From Methanobacteriota archaeon (GTDB taxonomy: Archaea; Thermoplasmatota; E2; DHVEG-1): a stretch of DNA of 42,384 nt. The notes under the pieces are model-generated. The model saw nothing but the letters and a program-made list of their open reading frames with translations. It made no database searches and had not been told where the DNA came from. The stretch lies in NCBI GenBank assembly GCA_026394495.1, contig JAPKYE010000056.1:1-42384 (forward strand), given 5' to 3'. Positions 10,129 through 35,269 of this stretch are shown one piece after another; the first letter of the stretch is position 1; the number at the start of each line of letters is the position of its first letter. A program made the translations under genes and the position numbers.

Positions 10129-10962
10129 TTATCCCCATCCAGTTTGCCATGGAGGTATCGGTGGTGTTTGTCCTGGTGTTTGTGCCTCAACTAGGAAACC
10201 TTGAAGCGGGAAGACATCAGGTGCCCACCAGGAATATATCAGAATTCCGTAACCCTGGTTTATCTCAGGTGCATGCGTTACGATCCATTTTGCTAACTCC
10301 CAGACGAAAATAATTCGTATTGTCGCTGACCAAGGATCTTGTATGTGAGCTGCAAGCATGACACCGATAAATATTGCAGCCGCAGGGACACCAAAGTTCA
10401 AGAGAACTAATCGAAGTGCTTTTGTTAATGCATTGTTTAAATCTACTAATCTTTCAATGCATGGGTCTCCGTGGCTGTCGTAATAGTGTTTGTGCCATAC
10501 ACCAGTGATACCGTAGAAGAGATACTCTGGTGTCTCATGGCTTTCACCCATGGTTAATACTGGTGTAGAATCTTCTCGTATTAACTGATATCCACTTGAT
10601 GGAAGACCAACCGTTTGATAAAGAGAAGTTAATTGTGTTTCAATGGTATCAAAATATCCTTGTAGTGTCGGTGTTAGGACCATTCCATTGAGTGAATCAC
10701 CATGTGTAGCCGCATACTCTGTGATATATTGGTTTATTGCGTTGAGTTGTGTTTGATATTGTGCGAATAATTGTTGATATTGTTCATAGGCTGATTGTTC
10801 CACAACAATTCCGGGTGTCGCTTCAGCATGTATTATTTCGACTGGAGTGAATACCCCGGGAGTGGTCGTTCGAGTTACTGCACTAGTTGCTGGTAATGCT
10901 ATCAGCAACACCAGGATAACAGCGGCCCCTATTCCAAAATATTTCTTTCCATTTCCTTTCAT
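10129..10962 (-). CDS. Secreted or membrane-anchored protein of unknown function
   Basis: A 277-residue protein whose ATG at 10962 follows a clear GGAGG. Residues 1-28 form a signal peptide or anchor (YFGIGAAVILVLLIALPATSA). A Gln/Tyr-rich helical stretch follows (YEQYQQLFAQYQTQLNAINQY, about 58-80), likely a coiled coil. Then comes a globular part with GITGVWHKHYYDSHGDPC, a hydrophobic segment LLNFGVPAAAIFIGVMLAAHI (about 188-208), and a Pro/Gly/Trp-rich tail (QTPGQTPPIPPWQTGWG). I do not recognise the family. It is flanked by unrelated genes and appears monocistronic. Confidence 0.6.
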   Translation of the reverse strand: MKGNGKKYFGIGAAVILVLLIALPATSAVTRTTTPGVFTPVEIIHAEATPGIVVEQSAYEQYQQLFAQYQTQLNAINQYITEYAATHGDSLNGMVLTPTLQGYFDTIETQLTSLYQTVGLPSSGYQLIREDSTPVLTMGESHETPEYLFYGITGVWHKHYYDSHGDPCIERLVDLNNALTKALRLVLLNFGVPAAAIFIGVMLAAHIQDPWSATIRIIFVWELAKWIVTHAPEINQGYGILIYSWWAPDVFPLQGFLVEAQTPGQTPPIPPWQTGWG

Positions 10963-11086
10963 TTCTTTTTCCTCCGTTCTTTGCTTGTTATATTCAAGCT
11001 ATGAAAAAGTATGTTCTCACCAGATATATAAACTTTATAGTGCAATCATCCAATCTTTAACATATGACAAAAAAAATAATAATTAT

Positions 11087-11773
11087 TTATGAACAAAAAG
11101 ATGGAGGAAAAAAGTATCCATATAATGTACTCAGGATTGAATCGAGAGTATCATTTCTATTTTGGATTTGATTTGGAATGCCATCTGATATATAAAACTC
11201 AACAAACTCTATGATACCTGCAACAATGGTTTTATCATCCAGATGTTCTTTATGTTTTATCAGTAAATCGTAAGTCATCCAGGGATCTTTTAACACATAT
11301 ATTTTCTCGCTTGATACTTGAGGCCGTTTAATGATGCTCGGCAGCGTTTCTTTACGGATGGCTCCTTTATCAATTGGTACCTGTTCAATGATCCCTGCAT
11401 GTATCATTTTACGCAAATGAAAACCAATTGTGGCAGGATGTTTTTCAAGAAATCTGCTTAGATCTTTTTGTGAACATTGCGCAGCGATGAAAAACCAGAG
11501 AAGAATATGGAGCGTTGTTCGTTTTCGAAAACAGTTGAGTATTTTTTTTTCTTTTTCACCAATATCAAGTGAAATAAAATATCGACTATATTTACCATCT
11601 ACTCTTGATATGATGAGTCCTTTTTTTTCAAGGTACTGTAAATGATATTTTAAAGAAGTAAAGGGAATATTCATTTTTCTTGAGATATCACGCATATGTA
11701 ATCCTGAGTTTTGCGCGATAAACTCATAGATTTCCCGTCTTCTTTTTAAATCCAGACTGGTATTATTTTGCAT
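11087..11773 (-). CDS. Tandem winged-helix transcriptional regulator
   Basis: A 228-residue protein with two ArsR/MarR-like winged helices in tandem: the first in residues 8-70 (REIYEFIAQNSGLHMRDISRKMNIPFTSLKYHLQYLEKKGLI) and the second about 82-140 (LHILLWFFIAAQCSQKDLSRFLEKHPATIGFHLRKMIHAGII). This layout is common in archaeal repressors and activators. It is transcribed divergently from the tetraether synthase-like gene. Its start codon abuts a perfect inverted repeat (11774-11805) that carries its own TATA box about 26-32 bases upstream, so it is probably leaderless, self-regulating and in control of the neighbour. The ligand is unknown. Confidence 0.85.
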   Translation of the reverse strand: MQNNTSLDLKRRREIYEFIAQNSGLHMRDISRKMNIPFTSLKYHLQYLEKKGLIISRVDGKYSRYFISLDIGEKEKKILNCFRKRTTLHILLWFFIAAQCSQKDLSRFLEKHPATIGFHLRKMIHAGIIEQVPIDKGAIRKETLPSIIKRPQVSSEKIYVLKDPWMTYDLLIKHKEHLDDKTIVAGIIEFVEFYISDGIPNQIQNRNDTLDSILSTLYGYFFPPSFCS

Positions 11774-11805
11774 TATAAAATCATTGTAGTGTTAATGATT
11801 TTATA
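11774..11805. promoter_or_regulatory. Perfect dyad operator with back-to-back TATA elements
   Basis: The sequence TATAAAATCATT (11774-11785) and its exact reverse complement (11794-11805) flank an 8-base spacer. Each arm carries TATAAAA in the outgoing direction, so the element contains one TATA-like box per strand. The minus-strand box lies about 26-32 bases before the regulator start at 11773, right for a leaderless transcript. Binding of a dimeric winged-helix protein here would block TBP access in both directions. The dyad is seen directly; its role is inferred. Confidence 0.75.
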
Positions 11806-11881
11806 TATATTTTCCTATAATGTCTACGTTAAAACCGAAACAAAAGTATATATCGTAAATTCCATTGTTTGGTTATCGTTA

Positions 11882-13387
11882 ATGATGGTGTTGGAGAATA
11901 TCGAATCTGTTTGTCCTACGTGTTATATTGAGGGAATAATCCAGAAGATCGATGCCCAAGTTATCGAAGAAAATAAGAAAGTATGGATCATTAAAAATTG
12001 TGAGAAACATGGTTCTTTTAAGGAGTTGTATTTTGGCGATGTGAATTTGTACAAGAGATGGATGAAATATAAGGTGACTGGGCATCCTGTTTCTGACGTG
12101 AAAACAAGTTTGTTTGATGACCCTACATTATATGCGGATCACACGTCTCAAACAATTTTAACAAATCTCGTTGTGACAAACAGGTGTAATCTACGATGTA
12201 GTTATTGTTTTATTAATGCAGGGGCAGCAGGTTCTGTCTATGAGCCATCGTTCAATCAACTGAGAACATTAATGCAGCAAACAAGAAATGAAAAACCCTT
12301 AGGTTCGAAATCCATTCAAATAACAGGTGGTGAACCAACACTTCGTAGTGATTTTTTCGATATTATTCGATTAGCTAAGGCGGTTGGTTTTTTGCATGTT
12401 CAGGTTCATACGAACGGGTTGAAACTCGCTGAAAATATCGAATACTGTCAACGATTGAAAGACGAAAAAGTCAACACTATTTATATGAGTTTCAATGGAG
12501 TATCGAAAGAAACGAATCCATTGTTAGAACAAAATAAACGTGCTTTGGAAAATCTTCGAAAAGTGAATGTCAATGTTGTTTTGGTTCCGGTTTTGATCGG
12601 TGGTAAAAATATTCATGAGACAGGTAAGATTGTACGTTTTGCTATTGACAATATAGATGTTGTCCGGGGTGTACATTTCCAGCCGATTTCCTTCTGTGGC
12701 AGAGCAACAACTTTAAAAGAGAATGAACGGAAAAGTCAGCGTGTTGAGTATATCCAGTTGATAGAAGCTATTGAACAAGAGTTTTCTGGATTGATATCAC
12801 GTGATGATTTCTACCCGATATCTATTCTCTTCCCGATTTCACAACTTACTGAAAGTGTAACGCGGGAACATCATGTGGAGTTCACCCCGCATCCAGGATG
12901 TGGTGGGTCGACATTTATCGTGATGAATGAAGGAAAACCGATCCCAATCACTCGATTTATTAATGTAGAAACCTATATCAAATTTATGAATGAACAAGCA
13001 GCGAAAACAGGTCCTTTGAGAAAACTTCGTCTCGCCTCAGCTATCGTGAAAAACATTAATACGTTTATCAATACCGAAAAAGCACCGCAGAGTTTTGATA
13101 TGAAACAGATAGCGAGGGATTCTGTAACTGTCGGAAACGAGTATGCCCTTCGAAAGTTACATCATAACAGCTTATTTATTGGCATGATGTGGTATCAAGA
13201 TCTTTGGAATCTCAACATCGATCGCTTACAACGATGTGTTATTCATTATACAACCTTTGAAGGAATCATCCCTTTCTGCACCTACAATATTCTTGGGTAT
13301 GGCGATAAAATTCAGAAAAAATATTCCATTTCAGTTGAAGAATGGGAGAAAAAAACTGGCCAATCATTACAAGATGACATGGCCTAA
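11882..13387 (+). CDS. Radical SAM protein of the tetraether lipid synthase (Tes) type
   Basis: About 501 residues from the ATG at 11882 (or 11885). The frame is open upstream, but an earlier start would place the ATG beside the divergent promoter and add an unlike hydrophobic leader. An N-terminal CPTC plus KNCEKHGSFKELYFGDVNLYKRW resembles the extra cluster region of archaeal Tes. Then come the radical SAM site NRCNLRCSYCF (CX3CX2C), the glycine block ITGGEPTLRSDFF, and C-terminal HPGCGG and RCVIHYTTFEGIIPFCTYN...KKYS, which fit the additional Fe-S binding part of this family. Tes couples two diether lipid tails into membrane-spanning tetraethers. A related radical SAM activity cannot be excluded, but the overall order fits Tes well. 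Confidence 0.8.
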   Translation: MMVLENIESVCPTCYIEGIIQKIDAQVIEENKKVWIIKNCEKHGSFKELYFGDVNLYKRWMKYKVTGHPVSDVKTSLFDDPTLYADHTSQTILTNLVVTNRCNLRCSYCFINAGAAGSVYEPSFNQLRTLMQQTRNEKPLGSKSIQITGGEPTLRSDFFDIIRLAKAVGFLHVQVHTNGLKLAENIEYCQRLKDEKVNTIYMSFNGVSKETNPLLEQNKRALENLRKVNVNVVLVPVLIGGKNIHETGKIVRFAIDNIDVVRGVHFQPISFCGRATTLKENERKSQRVEYIQLIEAIEQEFSGLISRDDFYPISILFPISQLTESVTREHHVEFTPHPGCGGSTFIVMNEGKPIPITRFINVETYIKFMNEQAAKTGPLRKLRLASAIVKNINTFINTEKAPQSFDMKQIARDSVTVGNEYALRKLHHNSLFIGMMWYQDLWNLNIDRLQRCVIHYTTFEGIIPFCTYNILGYGDKIQKKYSISVEEWEKKTGQSLQDDMA

Positions 13388-13472: not shown

Positions 13473-14924
13473 TTAATTATATGTGTGCGTAAGCTCAACG
13501 TAAGCGCTCCCTGTTACTGGACTACCATTAATGGTTCCAGAAACTGTACACGCACCTTCCCAAAAACAGGTACATGGGACAAAATATACAATAAACTGTT
13601 GAGCCCAAGGCGGTAAATTCTCGAATAAACGCATCATTTGGTCGTCATAGTATGGGGTAATAATAAGGTTAATTGAGTGTGAAGGTTCTATGATATTCCA
13701 CTGATTCGAAAAAATCTTTTGGCTGATCGGGTCCCGCCAATAGCCTAATTGCGTAATTGTATAATCATCTAAAAGATCTAAAGATCCATTGATATCGACT
13801 AAATTCAATCCACCAGAATATGATCCTAGTCTATGTCCAGCTCTATCCCATAAATCACCGACCATGATCTCCTGGTAGTCATTAAGTTTTATTGAGAACC
13901 ACTCCCAATTCACTCGAAGACCTAAGGGGGGTTGAGCTGGGTCGAAGTTGATAAAATTGCCCCATTGGTGATCGATCCATGCAGATCCAGTTACCTTTTC
14001 GTTGATTCCATCGACCGTTATCATACCTTCAACTGCAAGTTTTGTCAGAGTATAATACCAAGAGGAATCATTTCCAAAATCAACAACCCCATCACCACTC
14101 ACTATTAATGGAGGTTTCACACAATCCATATCAACTGATAGTTGCATTGGTTGATTGTCCTCCTGTTGGGCATCTCCGCTGACAAGAAGGGTGTACTGGA
14201 AGGGAAGAAGATCATCACCACTGGTTTTGGTACACCAAACGTCATTTTGTATCGTCCCACCGCCACCATCATCGTCAGCGATGACCGGGGTTGACTGAAT
14301 AGGTGTAGCTGCAATCCGTGGCATCAGTTGTAAGTTCATGGATGTTGCCTTTGTATCCATAGTTTTACTCAGTGCATAAACTGCTTGATTATTTGAAGCG
14401 ATATATTGATTGAAGTCGAGATTGTTCAAATAGTTATCATCAAAAGGTGCAAATGTTAAATCAAGATGATCAGCACTTGCTGACAAGTCTCCGAATTTCC
14501 TATTGGTGTAGGTTTGCCCTTCCGCGATATCAGAGATGGTAAATAATCGTAATTCTATGTTATCATGTTGAGCTCGGTGAAGCTGAAAATAACAGACCAT
14601 TGATCCGTATTCATTACCCGTCATATTGCCTGTGAGATGGAAATTCACATACCACCATTCAATCGGATATTCATAGGTGTCATGTGCGCCCTCATCGGTG
14701 GGAAACGTAATGTTTGTTCCTGGTGGATAATAGGGATATGTTTTCCATGGCCTCATCGGAGGTTGGTTATCTTGACTTGCATTGCCTATGCTCGGTGGGA
14801 TCACCATCAATAAAATGATCGTAAGTGACGTAAGGACCTTTAGATGGTTTTTTATCTTCGATGGAAATATACTGAGAAGTGGTATTCGCTCCAAAATTAT
14901 TCCAATTTTTTTAGGATTTCGCAT
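13473..14924 (-). CDS. Secreted CrtC/AttH-type lipocalin-like protein
   Basis: A 483-residue protein with a membrane-targeting N-terminus (VLTSLTIILLMVIPPSIGNAS, about 29-50). It carries signatures of the hydroxyneurosporene synthase/AttH lipocalin-like fold: YPIEWWYVNFHLTG near residue 88, and GSAWIDHQWGNF in the second half-barrel, followed by NWEWFSIKLNDYQEIMVGDL. CrtC enzymes hydrate carotenoid double bonds, while AttH-like proteins are often exported and uncharacterised. An Asp/Gly-rich insert (DDDGGGG, about residue 220) is unusual. The ATG at 14924 follows GGGGAAAG. It is one of three members of this fold in the window; the substrate is unknown. Confidence 0.75.
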   Translation of the reverse strand: MRNPKKIGIILERIPLLSIFPSKIKNHLKVLTSLTIILLMVIPPSIGNASQDNQPPMRPWKTYPYYPPGTNITFPTDEGAHDTYEYPIEWWYVNFHLTGNMTGNEYGSMVCYFQLHRAQHDNIELRLFTISDIAEGQTYTNRKFGDLSASADHLDLTFAPFDDNYLNNLDFNQYIASNNQAVYALSKTMDTKATSMNLQLMPRIAATPIQSTPVIADDDGGGGTIQNDVWCTKTSGDDLLPFQYTLLVSGDAQQEDNQPMQLSVDMDCVKPPLIVSGDGVVDFGNDSSWYYTLTKLAVEGMITVDGINEKVTGSAWIDHQWGNFINFDPAQPPLGLRVNWEWFSIKLNDYQEIMVGDLWDRAGHRLGSYSGGLNLVDINGSLDLLDDYTITQLGYWRDPISQKIFSNQWNIIEPSHSINLIITPYYDDQMMRLFENLPPWAQQFIVYFVPCTCFWEGACTVSGTINGSPVTGSAYVELTHTYN

Positions 14925-15931: not shown

Positions 15932-16076
15932 ATCTTGGAATTAAAAATCAAGAAGCAGGAACCTATTAAAAAGGATTGCGCTATGGTTTTTTTCTCTTCA
16001 ATAACAGACGTAGGTATTTGTTGGTTAGTATAGAAAACATAATAAATAATAATGACAATATATAACTTTGGGAGAT

Positions 16077-17234
16077 ATGAAAAAAATTGCGATTGTTGCT
16101 ATCGGTATTCTATTTTTTGCCACAGTATCAGCCTCAGGTATTATTCCCATAGGAAAATCAACAGTGGCACCATATGTGTTTTCCGAACAACAAAAACCTA
16201 GAATTCCCCCCATTATTTATATTTTACATGAACTATATGAAAAAAATCATCTGTATCAAAAGCTCTATAATCGTTTGATGCAAAAACCACTCACAAATGA
16301 GCACGGGTTTGTGTTTTCACCAAAGCCAGTTAATCTTTCTGATGATGCGTTTCATGGTGCGGATACCATTGATTTCACTGAATGGTGGTATTTTGATGCA
16401 ATACTCAACGACGGATACAGTATTCAACTGATCTTTCAGGTGATTAGTCTTTTGGATCGAAATGTACTGTCTACAAAAATCAATATGTATCAGAATGGCA
16501 AGTTAGTTGCAAACGCAGAAAAAATATTTCTCCCTGATGAATTCTTTATCTCAAAAGAAACACCGTTAATCACAATAAACGGGAAACAAGTGATGAACGG
16601 AGAAATCGATCATGGACAGTGGATATACGATGTCTCAGTTGATATCAACGATGTTGCTGTTGATCTGTGTTTTGTTGGTACTACCTGTGGTTGGAAAGGA
16701 GACGCCCCTGTAAGTAAATGGGCGGTCATCTTGCCGAAAGCAGATGTTCAAGGCATGATTACCATCAATAATCAGAAACAAAATGTCATGGGGACCGGAT
16801 ATCATGATCATAACTGGGAGCTCAACGCACAAGCAGGAAAATACTTTGGTTGGCTCTGGGGAAAAATCTCCACAGGTTCTGTGACTGTCGTGTGGTCTTC
16901 TATCCTAGATACTCGGTTTGAAGGACAACCGATCCTGGTAATCAATATAGGAGCGCAGGAATATCAATCCATTGATCCGTCAGCTATTCGATTCACCGCT
17001 GATGAAATCTTTTTAGAAAACGGCAAAATGATCCCGCATAAATTTGTGCTGCATGCAACAACAGATACTGTATCTGTTTCCCTGACAATGACCGTCGAAA
17101 CTATACATCATGTGAAAGTGGGAACAATCACCTACTGGCGGTACCATGTTCATTGTCTAGGTTCAGTTACGATTGATGGAAAAACTGAGCTTGTTGATCA
17201 AAAAGAAATCGCAGAGTTCGTCAGGTTCCGATAA
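16077..17234 (+). CDS. Secreted CrtC/AttH-type lipocalin-like protein
   Basis: About 385 residues. The ATG at 16077 is preferred over an upstream in-frame TTG because it gives a standard signal peptide (KKIAIVAIGILFFATVSASG). Family signatures are TIDFTEWWYFDAILNDGYSIQLIFQ (about residue 103) and MGTGYHDHNWELN (about 243), the paired half-barrel motifs also present in the genes at 13473 and 33944. It is exported and may bind or act on a hydrophobic isoprenoid-like ligand; a CrtC-like hydratase activity is only a possibility. Two Cys (CFVGTTCG) may form a disulfide. It stands alone between tRNA-Gly and the convergent tiaS. Confidence 0.75.
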   Translation: MKKIAIVAIGILFFATVSASGIIPIGKSTVAPYVFSEQQKPRIPPIIYILHELYEKNHLYQKLYNRLMQKPLTNEHGFVFSPKPVNLSDDAFHGADTIDFTEWWYFDAILNDGYSIQLIFQVISLLDRNVLSTKINMYQNGKLVANAEKIFLPDEFFISKETPLITINGKQVMNGEIDHGQWIYDVSVDINDVAVDLCFVGTTCGWKGDAPVSKWAVILPKADVQGMITINNQKQNVMGTGYHDHNWELNAQAGKYFGWLWGKISTGSVTVVWSSILDTRFEGQPILVINIGAQEYQSIDPSAIRFTADEIFLENGKMIPHKFVLHATTDTVSVSLTMTVETIHHVKVGTITYWRYHVHCLGSVTIDGKTELVDQKEIAEFVRFR

Positions 17235-23227: not shown

Positions 23228-24547
23228 ATGAAAATCCTCCTCGTATTTCCCAGAATTGAACATGGTGCAGCAACCCATAGTGATAAAGGATCGTGGAGTT
23301 CTATTCTCTTTGGATATCCAATTATTACACTACCTCATCTTGCTGCGATTACCCCAAAAAAATATTCAATAAAATTAGTCAACGAAAACTATGAGGATAT
23401 CGATTTCAACGACGATGCAGATGTTGTTGGGATCACAAGTTATACGATGACTGCACCACGTGTCTACGAAATAGCTGATGAGTTCCGCAGACGAGGAAAA
23501 AAAGTTGTTCTTGGTGGATATCATCCGACTGCGATGCCTGATGAGGCAAAACAACATGCTGACAGCATCTTACTAGGTGAGGCAGAGGCGACTTGGCCTG
23601 AACTTCTCTCTGACGCAGAAAAAGGAAAATTAAAACAGTTTTATGGTCCAAACCCTGATTTTGATATGGCTGCAATTCCCCCTATACGAAGAGATTTAAT
23701 TATTCATAACCCAATCATGGGTGCCGTACAATCAACCAGGGGTTGTCCGAATCAATGTGAGTTCTGCGCGATCGCAAGCTTCTGTAAACACGGGGTGAAA
23801 CAACGTCCTATAAAAAACGTGGTAGATGAAATTAAACAGATGCCGAATCGCATGTTTGTTATCCACGATCCAAGCCTTACGGTGAATCCACCATATGCTA
23901 GAGAATTTTTTAAGGAGCTGATTCGTCAAAAAATCCATAAAGGCTGGGTTGCAAACGGGAACGCTAACGTTCTTGGAAAAATCGATGACGATTTCTTGGA
24001 TCTTGCACGAAAATCCGGGTGTGTCGAATGGTTCGTCGGCTTTGAATCAGTAAGCCAGGCATCGCTTGATGGAATAAAAAAAACCGTAAACAAGGTTGAA
24101 GACTTCAAAAAAATGATTACACGCATCCATAAACATGGGATGACGGTCCAAGGCGGTATCATTTTTGGATTTGATCAGGATACCTCTGATGTCTTTGATA
24201 ACACTCTTGAGAAAATGTATGAATGGGAGCTTGATGCAGTGGAAATCAACGTTCTCACCCCGTATCCTGGGACGCCGCTTTTTGATCGGCTGGAAAAAGA
24301 AGGAAGACTTCTCACACGGGACTGGTCTAAGTTTAACCAAATAGATGTTGTCTTCAAACCAAAACAAATGACTGAGAAAGAACTCTTCGAAGGTGCACGT
24401 AAAGTTGCAAAAGCATATTACACAATGCCAAACGTGATCACTCGGGCGACAAAGGTGTTTCTACGGACACGAAAACTTTTTGGTTTACTTCCAGCAGGAA
24501 CCAATTATACCTTCAGACGGTATTATAAAAAAGATTTTGGTTTCTAG
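23228..24547 (+). CDS. B12-binding-domain radical SAM protein
   Basis: A 439-residue protein. Residues about 1-135 form a cobalamin-binding-type Rossmann domain (DADVVGITSYTMTAPRVYEIADEF, VVLGGYHPTAMPDEA, ILLGEAEATWPELL). Residues about 160-370 form the radical SAM barrel with STRGCPNQCEFCA (CX3CX2C) and WFVGFESVSQASLDGIKK. Members of this class methylate, cyclise or couple unactivated carbons; archaeal examples include GDGT ring-forming and calditol-forming lipid enzymes, but the motifs do not let me assign one. It starts the stretch of adenylate-forming and isoprenoid-related genes; TATA-like sequence near 23195-23203. Confidence 0.88.
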   Translation: MKILLVFPRIEHGAATHSDKGSWSSILFGYPIITLPHLAAITPKKYSIKLVNENYEDIDFNDDADVVGITSYTMTAPRVYEIADEFRRRGKKVVLGGYHPTAMPDEAKQHADSILLGEAEATWPELLSDAEKGKLKQFYGPNPDFDMAAIPPIRRDLIIHNPIMGAVQSTRGCPNQCEFCAIASFCKHGVKQRPIKNVVDEIKQMPNRMFVIHDPSLTVNPPYAREFFKELIRQKIHKGWVANGNANVLGKIDDDFLDLARKSGCVEWFVGFESVSQASLDGIKKTVNKVEDFKKMITRIHKHGMTVQGGIIFGFDQDTSDVFDNTLEKMYEWELDAVEINVLTPYPGTPLFDRLEKEGRLLTRDWSKFNQIDVVFKPKQMTEKELFEGARKVAKAYYTMPNVITRATKVFLRTRKLFGLLPAGTNYTFRRYYKKDFGF

Positions 24548-28960: not shown

Positions 28961-30286
28961 TTATGATGCAGAAATTATCAACTTAAACTTCCCGGTTTTT
29001 TTATCAATTGTAAGTTCATCGACTACTCTGACTGAATAAGTGACATCTGTGAAATCCTTTGCCTTCAACAAATCATCGAGTTTCTCCTTGATTTTCTGCA
29101 CAACTTCACCCTGTTTCTCCGATTTATCAATCACAGCAAAAAACTCAAACGATCTCTTATCTTTGACAACAATCTGTAGTTTATCAAGTCCTTTTACATA
29201 AAACTCTGCGATCACAATCGGATGAATAAAATCAAGTTTCCCCTTGCGATTCTCAAGCCAGATAACCATCTCGTCTCGCCCAATTACACTCTCAACCAAA
29301 GTGTAGGGAAGCATCTTTTTAGTATCTTCTTTCACTTTGAGATAATCATTAATCCGATACCTGATCAACGGCTGGGTTTTATTAAAAAGATTCGTCAACA
29401 GAATATGATCATCAAAAATCTCAACATACGCAAGATCATCAAACAAGTAGATGCCACCATACTCTTCTCTGCCGATTCCCATGATTACGCACTCTGCGAC
29501 ACCATATAAATTAGCCATCGGCAGATGAAACACACGTTCAACCTTTTTTTTCTCCTCAGGAATAATACCCTCCCCAGCATTCACAAGAAACCGAGGATTA
29601 ATATGAAGTTCTCCTTGTTCTTGTTTCTCAGAAAGAATCTTTAGCCCCGTGAAATACCCGCCAAGAACATCCGGCTGAAAACGATTCAATAGTTTTATAT
29701 GCTCTTCAATCGGTTTTTTGATATCAAGAATCAACTGATCACAAAACCAACTCGTGATCCCATGATTTGTCCAGGAGGAAAAACTCGCCCCTGCATAATG
29801 ACCATCTGCGGCACCAAAAAACACAGATTTATTTTTTGAAAACCTAAAATCAAACGTTTTTGTACTATATGGGAAAAAACAATCCCAATCACGTGTACTA
29901 TACACAAAAATACCGATTTTCCCAGATGAACCTGATGAGTGAATCACATGATATTTATTATACAAAAGATCATCCGGGTTTTTGCTTTTATCAAGGAAAT
30001 AAACCACATCTTTTTTCGAGATATCATTAGTAGTCAAAACCTCATCAAAATGATCCATGATCAATTCTTTATTAACTACGGGAAGATCCTGAATCTTTAT
30101 TGTATCAAGCTCTTTTTCTGTTATTCCTTTTAAGGTGTAGAATTCATGGTAAAATTTTGAGTGATTGTACGCATATTTAAGGATCTTGCGGAATTTTTTT
30201 TCACGCAGACGAAGCATACCCTCTCGAGTTTTTTTTTCATGAAGCTTCGATGCAATAAAACTACAGATCAACGCGAAATTACTCAT
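28961..30286 (-). CDS. PaaK/CapK-type adenylate-forming enzyme, copy 3
   Basis: A 441-residue paralogue of the gene at 25460, aligning end to end by eye (FRKILKYAYNHSKFYHEFY, HSSGSSGKIGIFVYS, GGYFTGLKILSEKQEQGEL, NLYGVAECVIMGIGREEYGG, KKTGKFKLI). Differences spread through the protein suggest an old duplication with both copies kept functional. It is upstream of the methyltransferase on the same strand (67 bases) and divergent from the second radical SAM gene. It probably acts in the same pathway as copy 1; the substrate is unknown. Confidence 0.85.
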   Translation of the reverse strand: MSNFALICSFIASKLHEKKTREGMLRLREKKFRKILKYAYNHSKFYHEFYTLKGITEKELDTIKIQDLPVVNKELIMDHFDEVLTTNDISKKDVVYFLDKSKNPDDLLYNKYHVIHSSGSSGKIGIFVYSTRDWDCFFPYSTKTFDFRFSKNKSVFFGAADGHYAGASFSSWTNHGITSWFCDQLILDIKKPIEEHIKLLNRFQPDVLGGYFTGLKILSEKQEQGELHINPRFLVNAGEGIIPEEKKKVERVFHLPMANLYGVAECVIMGIGREEYGGIYLFDDLAYVEIFDDHILLTNLFNKTQPLIRYRINDYLKVKEDTKKMLPYTLVESVIGRDEMVIWLENRKGKLDFIHPIVIAEFYVKGLDKLQIVVKDKRSFEFFAVIDKSEKQGEVVQKIKEKLDDLLKAKDFTDVTYSVRVVDELTIDKKTGKFKLIISAS

Positions 30287-30415
30287 CAGCTTCTTCCAAG
30301 AAGACGAATAGATTATTTGTTAATAAACCATTTTGATGAAAACGATTCAAAAGAATATGAACAATCAAACCAGGGATTAAATACAAAAGATGCCATACAT
30401 CACCATGAGCATACG
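30287..30415. promoter_or_regulatory. Divergent promoter, PaaK copy 3 / radical SAM 2
   Basis: A plus-strand ATTAAATACAAAAG (about 30376-30388) lies about 30 bases before the ATG at 30416, consistent with leaderless transcription. On the minus strand a TTTATTAAC-like box lies about 34-42 bases before 30286. Confidence 0.4.
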
Positions 30416-31810
30416 ATGAAATTTTTGTTTATTTTCCCATCACATAAAGGGTTTCAAATCGCTGATAGAAAACATTTTCCAGTAAACCCTTATTCTCCAC
30501 CACTTGGTCTCCTATATCTTGCGGCAGTCCTTGAAAACGACGGCCACACCGTCGAAGTTATTGATTATACCGCAGAACAGCAAGACCACACTGCATTAGC
30601 GCACAAGCTCTCCTCTGCAGATGCGGTCGGAATCACTATCTGCACGGGCTCTCTTTCCAACGCAAAAAACCTTGCAGAGTTCATCAAACAAACAGACCCT
30701 GAGATTCCACTTCTTCTCGGTGGACCCCACTGCTCACTTGTTCCACGACAAACCCTATTGAATTTCTCAGCGGACATTTGCGTCCAAGGAGAAGCAGAAC
30801 CAATCATCTCCCAGATCGCATCAGCACTTGAAGGAAAACAAAACCTGTCAAACATCCCAGGGATCTACTACAAAGAAAATGACATCATACGTTACACAAC
30901 GCCGCTCAAACCACTCGATAACCTCGATGAACTGCTCTTTCCCGCACGTCACCTCGTAGAAAAATACGACTACGGCTACATGCTTAAAGAAAAAATGACC
31001 AAGGGAAAAACCACGTCCATTGTCACCTCCAGAGGATGCCCATATCAATGCACATTCTGCGGATATACCAGCGTGCGACCAGGATTCAACATGCGATCAG
31101 CAGAAAATGTTCTTTGCGAACTCGACGAAATAAAAAGACAAGGATATAAATCCATCATGATCGTTGATAATAATTTCCTCGTCAACAAAAAACGCGATGA
31201 ACAAATCCTCGACGGCATCATCCAAAAAAAATATGATTTTACCATATGGATTGAAGGATCACGCGTTGATCTCGCACATAAACGACTCTACGAAAAAATG
31301 AAAAAAGCAGGTGTCACCTGCATATCTCTTGGGCTTGAATCAGGAAACCAAGACATCCTCAATTTCTACAAAAAACACACCACGCTTGCTCAGATACACC
31401 ATGCAGTACGACTCAGCAAAGACATGGGGTTTACCACATCAGGTAGTTTCGTTCTTGGTGCCCCCGTCGAAAGTAAAAAACAGATTAAACAAACCATCAA
31501 ACTTGCACAGTCACTCCCGCTTGATGTCGCGCATTTTGTTGCACTGGGGTATCTCTACGGTTCACCCCTATGGAAAGAAGCAGTCGCATCAGGAAAAATA
31601 CAACCAGATGAATTCGCAGTACCTGCGGATATCAGACGAGGACTTGGAAATTTCACTGAAGATGAACTGAAAAACTTCTGCATAAAAGCCCATCGCAGTG
31701 TATATTTCAACCCACGATTCATCCTACGGCAACTATGTGACGCTATCAGAAAAAAGGATTTTCATTTCATCAAAGCGGGTTTTCGCATGCTCGCCATAAA
31801 AGAAGAATAA
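30416..31810 (+). CDS. B12-binding-domain radical SAM protein
   Basis: About 464 residues from the ATG at 30416 (MKFLFIFPSHKGFQIADR); the frame is open upstream into the divergent gene but that part reads as noise. The N-terminal cobalamin-type domain shows PYSPPLGLLYLAAVLENDGHTVEVIDY, DAVGITICTGSL, LLLGGPHCSLVP and ICVQGEAEPII. The radical SAM domain starts at SRGCPYQCTFCGYTSVRPG (about residue 206) and continues with IMIVDNNFLVNKKR and ISLGLESGNQDIL. It has the layout of MiaB-like/BchE-like B12 radical SAM methylases and cyclases. It shares the class but not close identity with the gene at 23228. Confidence 0.88.
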   Translation: MKFLFIFPSHKGFQIADRKHFPVNPYSPPLGLLYLAAVLENDGHTVEVIDYTAEQQDHTALAHKLSSADAVGITICTGSLSNAKNLAEFIKQTDPEIPLLLGGPHCSLVPRQTLLNFSADICVQGEAEPIISQIASALEGKQNLSNIPGIYYKENDIIRYTTPLKPLDNLDELLFPARHLVEKYDYGYMLKEKMTKGKTTSIVTSRGCPYQCTFCGYTSVRPGFNMRSAENVLCELDEIKRQGYKSIMIVDNNFLVNKKRDEQILDGIIQKKYDFTIWIEGSRVDLAHKRLYEKMKKAGVTCISLGLESGNQDILNFYKKHTTLAQIHHAVRLSKDMGFTTSGSFVLGAPVESKKQIKQTIKLAQSLPLDVAHFVALGYLYGSPLWKEAVASGKIQPDEFAVPADIRRGLGNFTEDELKNFCIKAHRSVYFNPRFILRQLCDAIRKKDFHFIKAGFRMLAIKEE

Positions 31811-31816
31811 ATCATG

Positions 31817-32815
31817 TTACAGCTTCAGAATCTTTCTTAAATCATGGGGCAGAAATGGTTTCTCAAAAATACGCGTCTCTGTTTTTTTCACAAGCTCTAC
31901 AAGTTTCGTGTTCACCGGCGCCTTAAGATATTTTTGGTCAGCAAGACGAACAATCTCACCATTGATGTAATCAATCTCCGTTGTTTTTCCTTGTGAAAGA
32001 CTCTGCCACATCGAATTTCTCGCATCGTCTTTCATCCCAAGCGCAACCTTGCTTAACAGCGCGGAAAACGAACCAAGAAAACGAAGTACCCGGATGATAC
32101 GCTTTGGATCAATCCCTGGAAGAGAACGCAGCGGGATCTTTACTTGTTTCACAATAGAAAGCGCCTCCCGTAGTGTTGCAAGAATGATGATTCGTGAATC
32201 CCGGTTTTTCATCGACTGTCTGATGGTTTGACCAGTGAGTGCGGTCACCGCAATCTGGGTGTTTACTATCAACTTACTCCAAAGAACAGGTTCTATATCA
32301 AAAACAAAACGCACATCCAGCCCCTGAGATTTGAAATGATTTTTTATCTCTGACAACGATGATGCATGCTCGTTGGAAAACTCAAGAACAAGACCGCCTT
32401 TCATCGTGAGCGACGCAACACCTGGTGAAGATGAGACAGCGTTAAACAATACCACACCAGAAATCGCTTTGACCTTTGTGATATCCCTTAGAATCTGCGC
32501 ATTATGTACCCCGTTCTGAAGAGAAATAATCAATGTGTTTTTTTTTAGATGTTTTTGCATCAGATGGGCAACAGGCTCAGTATCCTGCGATTTCACACAT
32601 ACAAACACGACGTCAACATCAGATACCTTCGCATAATCATTTGTAATTTTCAGAGTATCATTAAAGTATTGTTTTTCATCGATGATCAGACCCTGTTTTT
32701 TGATATTATCCACATGATCGTTTTTTCCAAGAAGAACCACATAGTCCTGTGTCTCCATCAGATGTCGAGCAATAATGCTTCCTACAGCCCCAAGTCCTAC
32801 TACTGCGTATTTCAT
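31817..32815 (-). CDS. 2-dehydropantoate 2-reductase-like protein (PanE/ApbA)
   Basis: A 332-residue protein with N-terminal NAD(P)-binding GLGAVGSIIARHL, then VDVVFVCVKSQDT and LQNGVHNAQIL, the central WSKLIVNTQIAVTALTGQ, and the C-terminal SMWQSLSQGKTTEIDYINGEIVRLA, where the ketopantoate reductase family has its catalytic Lys/Asn and substrate Glu. It may serve pantothenate/CoA synthesis, which would fit the nearby acid-activating enzymes, or reduce another 2-oxo acid or imine. Its ATG overlaps the stop of the upstream prenyltransferase gene (4 bases), so the two are co-translated. Confidence 0.85.
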   Translation of the reverse strand: MKYAVVGLGAVGSIIARHLMETQDYVVLLGKNDHVDNIKKQGLIIDEKQYFNDTLKITNDYAKVSDVDVVFVCVKSQDTEPVAHLMQKHLKKNTLIISLQNGVHNAQILRDITKVKAISGVVLFNAVSSSPGVASLTMKGGLVLEFSNEHASSLSEIKNHFKSQGLDVRFVFDIEPVLWSKLIVNTQIAVTALTGQTIRQSMKNRDSRIIILATLREALSIVKQVKIPLRSLPGIDPKRIIRVLRFLGSFSALLSKVALGMKDDARNSMWQSLSQGKTTEIDYINGEIVRLADQKYLKAPVNTKLVELVKKTETRIFEKPFLPHDLRKILKL

Positions 32816-33900
32816 GTTTCCCTCACAAACTCATATCGTTTTCGTAACAATCGCTGGGTCGACAGAGCAAGACCCAACGAGACCGTAAAAATTAGAGCTG
32901 CAATCCACCATGATGAAATCACGCCGAAGAGAAACGCAGATGCAAGAGTCACTCGTTCTGCAACAAAAAACTCATGTGCTTGCAATGCACGTACTCGATC
33001 AATCTCTCTTGCGGTGAACATGCGAAGATACATGATACAAAGAATGAGAACTGCACATGCAAAGACGATGATGAACCGATCCAAATATCGTATCAACGGT
33101 GAAAAAACAATGAAGCCGATGATTAATAGTATGCAGAGACTGCTAAGACAAGCTGCGATTGTAAACGATGTTTTGACTCCGTATTTCACGGGTATTGTAT
33201 TGTATCCTCCTTTTTGATCCCCTTCCCTGTCTCGGATTGTGCCGACAAGGTTGCTGGTGATATCATGGATAAGGAAAACTATGGAGAGCAGCCAGATTGA
33301 TAGGGGGATAGATTCTGGTGAGATGCCAGTAGCAAATACGCCAAACACGTAGGCTGCGATGATGACGATTCCTCTGTTGATGTTCCCAAAGATACCGCGT
33401 GATTTAGAAATTTTTGAATAAGCAAATACGAGTGCTGCTACGACAAAAACAAGTAAAACGTTCCAAGGACTGAGGAGAAAACAAAGAAGAAACCCAACAA
33501 TAACATAGATTCCCCCAACGCCAAGCGCCTCCTTTGGTTTTATTCTTCCTGAAGGAATTGGTCTGTGTGGTTTCTGGATTGCATCAAGTTTTCTATCAAG
33601 GAAGTCAGAGAGATACAATGCAGCGATCCACCCGAGGATGGGAATAAGAAACGATAAGAACAAACGTATTTCTTGGTCAATAGTAAATGATAGATTGTTG
33701 CCATAGGCAAGACTAGCACCAACAAGACTCACGAGACCACACCATATGACTGTGTACAACCGCATGGTTTCAATATGAGCAAAAATCTTCTGTTTTAGTT
33801 TTCCAACAATTGATTGTGTTGTCATCGCAGGAGGCACCTGTTTACAAAAAGAAAACAGCTGATGGAATTTAAACCTATAACCCGCATGATGTTTTCCCAT
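32812..33900 (-). CDS. UbiA-family prenyltransferase
   Basis: A 362-residue integral membrane protein with about nine transmembrane segments. The first Asp-rich motif is DFLDRKLDAIQKPHRPIPSGRI and the second is GTIRDREGDQKGGYNTIP, which bind the prenyl diphosphate through Mg2+. Relatives include the archaeal digeranylgeranylglyceryl phosphate synthase and quinone prenyltransferases; the length and second motif do not decide between them. A start at 33900 fits a TATA box at about 33924-33934; a Met 25 codons in (33825) is an alternative. It shares a 43-base divergent promoter with the CrtC/AttH-like gene. Confidence 0.85.
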   Translation of the reverse strand: MGKHHAGYRFKFHQLFSFCKQVPPAMTTQSIVGKLKQKIFAHIETMRLYTVIWCGLVSLVGASLAYGNNLSFTIDQEIRLFLSFLIPILGWIAALYLSDFLDRKLDAIQKPHRPIPSGRIKPKEALGVGGIYVIVGFLLCFLLSPWNVLLVFVVAALVFAYSKISKSRGIFGNINRGIVIIAAYVFGVFATGISPESIPLSIWLLSIVFLIHDITSNLVGTIRDREGDQKGGYNTIPVKYGVKTSFTIAACLSSLCILLIIGFIVFSPLIRYLDRFIIVFACAVLILCIMYLRMFTAREIDRVRALQAHEFFVAERVTLASAFLFGVISSWWIAALIFTVSLGLALSTQRLLRKRYEFVRET

Positions 33901-33943: not shown

Positions 33944-35269
33944 ATGCTTGCGAAAACAGATCCTTTTAACCCTTGGACAATGGATGATGAAGGTGAACAC
34001 CCTAAAAGCTCCATGGAATGGTGGTGTGCAGAAGCGTTTTTTTGTTCGGCTCTTGATAAAAAAAAATGGAGTGTTAAAGCTGATTTCATGCAATGGCGCA
34101 CAAAAACCGGTGTTCATGGATCTATGTATAATCTGCGGTTGTTTGATCTTCAAACCAGCAAACACTACATCTTCGATGCAAGAAATGAAACACAAAAATT
34201 ACACATAACAAACAACCCGTTTTCCGCTTCGTTTCAAGAATCATTCTTTCAAGGATCCTTTCCAACATATACGATTCATTGTGTTGATCAAAAAAACGAT
34301 ATCGCTTTAGATTTATCATGCAATTCTTCCTCGTACCCTCATTGGGTTGCTCAGGATATCACAGGAGGTTTTCTACCTGCGGGATTGGGGTTCTACCGAT
34401 ATGGTTTCATCCCAAAAAATACTCTCACAGGAAATCTTCGCATTCGCGATACAACAACTCTAATCACTGGTGAAGGATATATTGAACATGTCTACGGTGA
34501 TTTCTCATATCATCGCCTTGGTACAGAACATGCTGGGTTACAAAAATCATTTTCTACATATAGTAAACTTGTTGGATGGTGGCTCAGAAATCATACGTTT
34601 CATATCCCTGAGAAACTGACCCTTAGTACCAGCAACAACCCACTGGGATACGACTGGATGTGGGGACTTCTTGACAACGGATGGACGCTGTTTTATGGAA
34701 ATATCCTTTTCTGGATTATGCAAGGGCCAATCGCAGGATCACTAATATTTTCCAAAGATGGAAAAACATACACGGAGTTCTGTAACGTCTCTTTCCGCTA
34801 TTCAGCCATGCGACATGCAAAAGAATTTAATGTCATGTACCCAACAGGAATAGAGATGACTGCAACAAACAAAAAAGAGACACTTCACCTCACAGTAACA
34901 ATGACCGATGAGCCCTATGAACATACACGAAAATTCATAAACGAAAAATTCTGGCAAGGATTTTTAATTGCTGAAGCACCCGGGACCATTCAAGGATATT
35001 ATTCAGATGGAAAAGAAACAATTCCACTCAATGGGATGTGCAAACTGGAACCCCAACGACAAATATCAAAACTTGGCCATAACTCACTTAGTATCACTCT
35101 TCTCAAACCACCACAGGGGATCGGAAAAATAATAGAACTTGATTCTTCTCTTCTCAAAAAAACGTGCGTAATGAAAGTACAATTTTTCCCAAAACCCCGG
35201 ATTAGTTTTACGATGAACCGGCATGCGAATACCGAATCTTCAAAAAAAGAAGCGAAAGATTACAGCTGA
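33944..35269 (+). CDS. CrtC/AttH-type lipocalin-like protein without signal peptide
   Basis: A 441-residue protein. The family signatures are KSSMEWWCAEAFF (about residue 22-34) and TGEGYIEHVYGDFSYHRLG (about 179-197), parallel to EWWY... and ...HDHNWE in the two secreted members here. Unlike those it begins directly with the fold and has no signal sequence, so it is probably cytoplasmic. Being divergent from a UbiA prenyltransferase, it is a reasonable candidate for acting on a prenylated product, for instance by hydration as CrtC does. The activity is inferred from context only. Confidence 0.72.
   Translation: MLAKTDPFNPWTMDDEGEHPKSSMEWWCAEAFFCSALDKKKWSVKADFMQWRTKTGVHGSMYNLRLFDLQTSKHYIFDARNETQKLHITNNPFSASFQESFFQGSFPTYTIHCVDQKNDIALDLSCNSSSYPHWVAQDITGGFLPAGLGFYRYGFIPKNTLTGNLRIRDTTTLITGEGYIEHVYGDFSYHRLGTEHAGLQKSFSTYSKLVGWWLRNHTFHIPEKLTLSTSNNPLGYDWMWGLLDNGWTLFYGNILFWIMQGPIAGSLIFSKDGKTYTEFCNVSFRYSAMRHAKEFNVMYPTGIEMTATNKKETLHLTVTMTDEPYEHTRKFINEKFWQGFLIAEAPGTIQGYYSDGKETIPLNGMCKLEPQRQISKLGHNSLSITLLKPPQGIGKIIELDSSLLKKTCVMKVQFFPKPRISFTMNRHANTESSKKEAKDYS

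Follow-up and report, generated by a model that had tools for sequence, protein, structure and literature searches.

The window, i.e., the whole 42,384-nt stretch of DNA analyzed here, contains a divergent gene pair in which a winged-helix regulator (11087..11773, minus strand, 228 aa) and a tetraether synthase (Tes) paralogue (11882..13387, plus strand, 501 aa) flank a 108-bp intergenic region. The regulator end of this region is occupied by a dyad, TATAAAATCATT-GTAGTGTT-AATGATTTTATA (11774-11805), with 12-nt arms and an N8 loop. As the first-pass annotation had described it, the inverted repeat is perfect, with both arms letter-exact at these coordinates, and the regulator starts directly beside it, at 11773 on the minus strand. 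The proximal arm (TATAAAATCATT; 11774..11785, plus strand) adjoins the regulator's start codon and lies at its expected transcription start, and the distal arm (11794..11805), in which the minus strand reads TATAAAATCATT, shares bases with the TATA box of the regulator. The dyad is genuine as well as rare, being the sole perfect inverted repeat in the 42-kb window with arms of at least 12 nt and a loop of at most 20 nt, and ten shuffles of the window produced none. Among dinucleotide shuffles of the intergenic region (108 bp), 0.11% held such a repeat (P = 0.0011), a rate from which we estimate that intergenic DNA would contain 1-2 such dyads per genome by chance. In 291 kb of family DNA there were three such repeats (loop 3-20 nt), and only the dyad was located just upstream of a start codon. 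A search for further copies, proposed as a check in the first-pass annotation, found none in the 2.2-Mb genome at up to 3 mismatches.

The regulator scores above cut-off for Pfam families HTH_24, HTH_HVO_0163_N, HTH_20, and HTH_5, and its score for the TrmB domain is below the TrmB cut-off. In an AF2 model of moderate confidence (pLDDT 70.6), the protein folds into two winged helices, with a helical C-terminus whose prediction is poor. Together, the Pfam hits and the model agree with the two winged helices originally proposed and point to an HTH_24/ArsR-type double winged helix. Since the model is moderate, its fold matches (best E = 9e-4, with low TM-scores) are indicative only. Residues 3-77 match the N-terminal domain of a putative DNA-binding transcription factor from Thermoplasmatales archaeon SCGC AB-539-N05 (5duk; sequence E = 1.2e-15, 42% identical in the fold alignment), a protein without known function of which only the first winged helix was solved. 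Phr of Pyrococcus furiosus (2p4w) was among the better fold matches, with a weak overall match (TM 0.3, moderate model).

Each gene of the pair has a predicted, conserved BRE/TATA of its own. For the regulator, GGAAAA-TATATATAAAA (11799..11815, minus strand) includes a TATA box that begins 36 nt before the start codon. For Tes, ACAAAAG-TATATATC (11840..11854, plus strand) includes a TATA box at 11847 that begins 35 nt before the ATG at 11882, a start that was set by alignment with relatives beginning MKELEK..SVCP; in the relatives, the Tes TATA reads GTATAAA. In all five genomes that have the pair, the distance from TATA to start codon is 33-36 nt for the regulator and ~35 nt for Tes. Across family DNA (152 starts), TATA boxes are modestly enriched at -33 to -36, which fits near-leaderless transcripts. 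A comparison by ungapped 11-mer similarity revealed no site common to the two promoters (P = 0.21-0.74). The best explanation of the divergent intergenic region, as judged from its sequence, is that the regulator and Tes each have a near-leaderless archaeal promoter of their own.

The first-pass annotation had read the arms of the dyad as two divergent TATA boxes. This holds for the distal arm, whose overlap with the conserved regulator BRE/TATA also bears out the claim that the regulator's own predicted promoter lies within the dyad, and it does not hold for the proximal arm. The latter has no BRE-like sequence upstream, it reaches 7-8 of 13 consensus points where the -34 to -36 sites reach 11-12, and as a Tes TATA box it would imply a Tes leader of ~80 nt. 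A bidirectional TATA switch would have a BRE and a fitting distance to the start codon in both arms, a combination that the Tes-facing arm lacks. We consider the proximal arm an implausible Tes TATA box because it is without a BRE and unconserved, and because the Tes TATA is conserved at 11847.

Genome searches identified four further genomes with regulator orthologues (71-80% identical), each divergent from a Tes gene (G035:C19, G067:C131, G066:C33, and G029:C10). A scan of named genomes with an alignment as query returned the same four contigs, which belong to Thermoplasmata/Euryarchaeota MAGs (Bin3_14.8m, LacPavin sediment, Prado234, and bin_19); an earlier contig scan with a single-protein query had found no match, and a search of viral contigs yielded no relatives. 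A linked Tes lies beside the regulator orthologue in 5/5 genomes having that orthologue. In the 40 other family genomes searched, no regulator match exceeded 43% identity, and none of their Tes sampled in the tree belonged to the linked clade. The regulator-Tes divergent pair is conserved in the window and four other Thermoplasmatota MAGs.

The dyad is not conserved with the pair. When the five intergenic regions were aligned, identity to the window was 83% in the regulator BRE/TATA block, 72% in the Tes BRE/TATA block, 51% in the dyad block, and 43% in the unconstrained middle. The first-pass annotation had suggested checking whether relatives that retain the pair keep the dyad; it is absent in 4/4, and none of the four has a significant palindrome (P = 0.30-0.78). 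The relatives' best imperfect dyads are centered 13-16 nt before the regulator start, a weak, post hoc result (P ~0.03). Since each winged helix has a nearly identical recognition helix in the window regulator and its relatives, a sequence-specific operator should have been retained. With 0/4 orthologous loci carrying it, we rejected the dyad as a conserved operator sequence.

The gene opposite the regulator, initially described as tetraether synthase-like, is identified as Tes by NCBIfam NF045702 (522.4 bits, cut-off 450). By its sequence it is a Tes paralogue from a family whose function is C-C bond formation between archaeal lipid tails. It matches Tes/GDGT-MAS of Methanocaldococcus jannaschii (7TOL; PMC9433317) over its whole length (E = 2e-115), and all canonical cysteines are kept: the radical-SAM CX3CX2C is intact (C102, C106, C109), as are the rubredoxin-type ligands and the C-terminal cluster cysteines, together with the equivalents of Q268/S271/R275 and Y459. 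The ligands of the N-terminal [Fe4S4] cluster of 7TOL (C73, C77, C80) are missing in the window Tes and throughout its family. In the four linked relatives (L103:2844-4358, L104:4369-5883, L105:1905-3404, and L106:4384-5895; all minus strand), the radical-SAM cysteine positions read C-H-D, F-H-D, Y-S-N, and T-S-K, cysteine stands in place of the Y459-equivalent tyrosine, and residues that contact adenosine have changed. Retained are GGEPT and the cysteines of the rubredoxin-type site and of the C-terminus. Reading frames of the linked Tes are full length, with pairwise dN/dS of 0.11-0.19, and the copies of the four relatives are likely Tes pseudoenzymes under purifying selection. Three of these four genomes (G035, G066, G029) carry a second, canonical Tes. 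The five linked Tes proteins form one clade (99/100), in which the window copy is sister to the four relatives, with high support in the full tree and 65/57 when the motif is masked. The regulator tree differs, nesting the window copy among the four relatives (90/79), and we are unsure of the order of events in this clade.

Two other Tes copies were observed in the window's genome. The second paralogue (L034; G000:C24 20981-23250) is 54% identical, with motif CNLRCEYCC and Y456C, and a second regulator paralogue (42%) is directly downstream on the same strand, so that the Tes-regulator association recurs. The third, distant Tes (37%; L094, G000:C63 3187-4704) is probably the housekeeping Tes of this genome. 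It adjoins a ribulose-phosphate epimerase gene (L111; 2464-3108), and the epimerase also neighbors the canonical Tes in G029. Within the window there are three CrtC/lipocalin-like genes, at 13473-14924 (minus strand), 16068-17234 (plus), and 33944-35269 (plus), the first of which alone is above the Pfam cut-off; among the five loci read far enough, four (G035, G067, G066, G029) show an ORF homologous to the one beside Tes. The window also contains two B12-binding radical-SAM genes and a UbiA prenyltransferase gene (23228-24547, plus; 30161-31810, plus; 32812-33900, minus).

If the dyad works, its position between the TATA box and the regulator start argues for autorepression, since archaeal regulator sites downstream of TATA usually repress (PMC4158304). 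The dyad spans the promoter of the regulator only, from TATA box to expected transcription start. A regulator dimer could bind its half-sites, which are 20 bp (~two helical turns) apart, on one face of the DNA; once bound, it would block TBP/TFB or polymerase, and the regulator would limit its own synthesis as the autoregulatory Phr and HSR1 do (PMC9133787). Tes would not be controlled through a second TATA box within the dyad. We tentatively favor the dyad as a lineage-specific autoregulatory operator, with confidence slightly short of even; binding, dimer, and repression are each part of this proposal rather than observations. Phr of P. furiosus and HSR1 of Archaeoglobus fulgidus are winged-helix proteins that act at sites close to or covering their own gene starts (the 29-bp site of Phr overlaps the start site; PMC9133787). 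As with these, a winged-helix DNA-binding protein is encoded next to the dyad; the overlap of the dyad with that protein's promoter applies to the promoter as predicted. Unlike theirs, the window regulator has two winged helices, and the dyad differs from their motifs and is unconserved in relatives. An autorepressor's operator would also be kept with orthologous regulators, and the dyad is absent from the four orthologous loci. In the TrmB/Tgr system of Thermococcales, the place of the inverted repeat relative to BRE/TATA decides between repression and activation (PMC4158304); its arms of 4-6 nt are repeated across a regulon, whereas the dyad is a single 12-nt copy with no regulon.

The regulator may instead have its real operator elsewhere. 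A 26-bp element, AAAGATTGGATGATTGCACTATAAAG (11033..11058, minus strand), lies just past the end of the regulator gene. A TATA box comes next (~11024-11032), and ~71 nt separate this TATA from a gene (10129..10962, minus strand) for a 277-aa protein with a hydrophobic, signal-like N-terminus and no Pfam family, which is a possible target. The element is directly behind the regulator gene in 5/5 orthologous loci, and a variant is behind the paralogous regulator of G032:C13. Element plus TATA was found in 8/80 class genomes, with zero control hits, and 7/8 of these genomes carry a regulator homologue (E < 1e-35), compared to 8/45 family genomes overall; the co-occurrence has a Fisher P of 1.4e-6 across the 45 family genomes, and a single genus taken alone gives 0.04, values that are uncorrected for relatedness. 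The element is a candidate regulon motif. Copies outside the window include those at G035:C44 and C26, G066:C81 (two), G029:C67, G032:C13 and C131, and G019:C122 and C226. Those that are unlinked precede signal-peptide-like genes in G035, G066, G029, and G032, and one in G019 precedes a B12-radical-SAM gene; several of the target proteins are homologous to each other. Since archaeal activators bind just upstream of TATA (PMC4158304), the position of the element suggests activation, and the regulator would probably activate secreted-protein genes through it. We infer from adjacency and co-occurrence only that the regulator reads the 26-bp element, which is a better candidate for a conserved operator than the dyad. 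Against this, G024 has a homologue and no element, G065 has the element and no close homologue, the genomes are not independent, another co-occurring factor could read the element, and no match was detected in the dyad region or near Tes or the paralogous Tes genes (best score -18). On balance we lean modestly towards the 26-bp element being the true operator and the dyad being irrelevant to it, a view that is compatible with dyad autoregulation.

Two side observations concern these element loci. In G019:C122, B12-radical-SAM, UbiA-like, and CrtC-like genes occur together with a 26-bp element and a regulator paralogue. In the relatives, a hairpin, GGTATTGTAGTGAGC..GCTCACTACAATGCC, is conserved in the stretch that separates the element from the following gene (L091 9656-9687, with matching stretches on the 3' side of the regulator in L032 and L031); the window is without it. 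An Rfam scan returned tRNAs only.

The dyad could also be a chance, non-functional palindrome, which we regard as nearly as likely as autorepression and thus as a serious possibility, if one somewhat under even. The conserved TATA box would hold one of the AT-rich arms in place, and in the window's lineage the other would have been completed by drift in the 12 nt that precede the start codon, a course of events to which we give the same guarded credence. The arms are 92% A+T, the dyad was picked from some dozens of intergenic regions, the genome holds no second copy, and 4/4 relatives with the same gene pair have not conserved it. However, the dyad is rare, both in its own region (0.0011) and in family DNA (three in 291 kb), and its place is the one to expect for an operator of the neighboring regulator. 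That the dyad-bound regulator controls itself and Tes together through TATA boxes in both arms, the switch put forward in the first-pass annotation, is improbable: the dyad does lie between both genes with its distal arm overlapping the regulator TATA, and the central TATATATA, read the opposite way, might give rise to a minor Tes start, but the Tes-facing arm is unconserved and without a BRE, 4/4 relatives are missing the dyad, and the conserved TATA of Tes at 11847 is separate from the dyad, >40 bp downstream.

Whether or not the dyad serves in autorepression, it does not settle how Tes is controlled. Regulation of Tes has been named as open (PMC8941075), tes rises in the cold (PMC10465181), and our search of the open-access full-text literature found neither a regulator of Tes nor a cysteine-less Tes; little has been described of how tetraether formation is controlled at the level of transcription. 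It is conceivable, though we consider it rather unlikely, that the regulator family in this Thermoplasmatota family commands, through 26-bp sites, a small regulon (secreted proteins and, in one genome, a B12-radical-SAM gene) and is itself coupled to a Tes paralogue. In this reading, the paralogue has become in four relatives a radical-SAM-less pseudoenzyme under purifying selection, which might bind lipid as a partner of active Tes or regulate it. The conserved regulator-Tes pair and the 26-bp element provide testable handles on tetraether control. Cysteine-less Tes proteins maintained by selection would represent a pseudoenzyme form of a lipid synthase, and they would caution against calling GDGT producers from metagenomic tes homologues.
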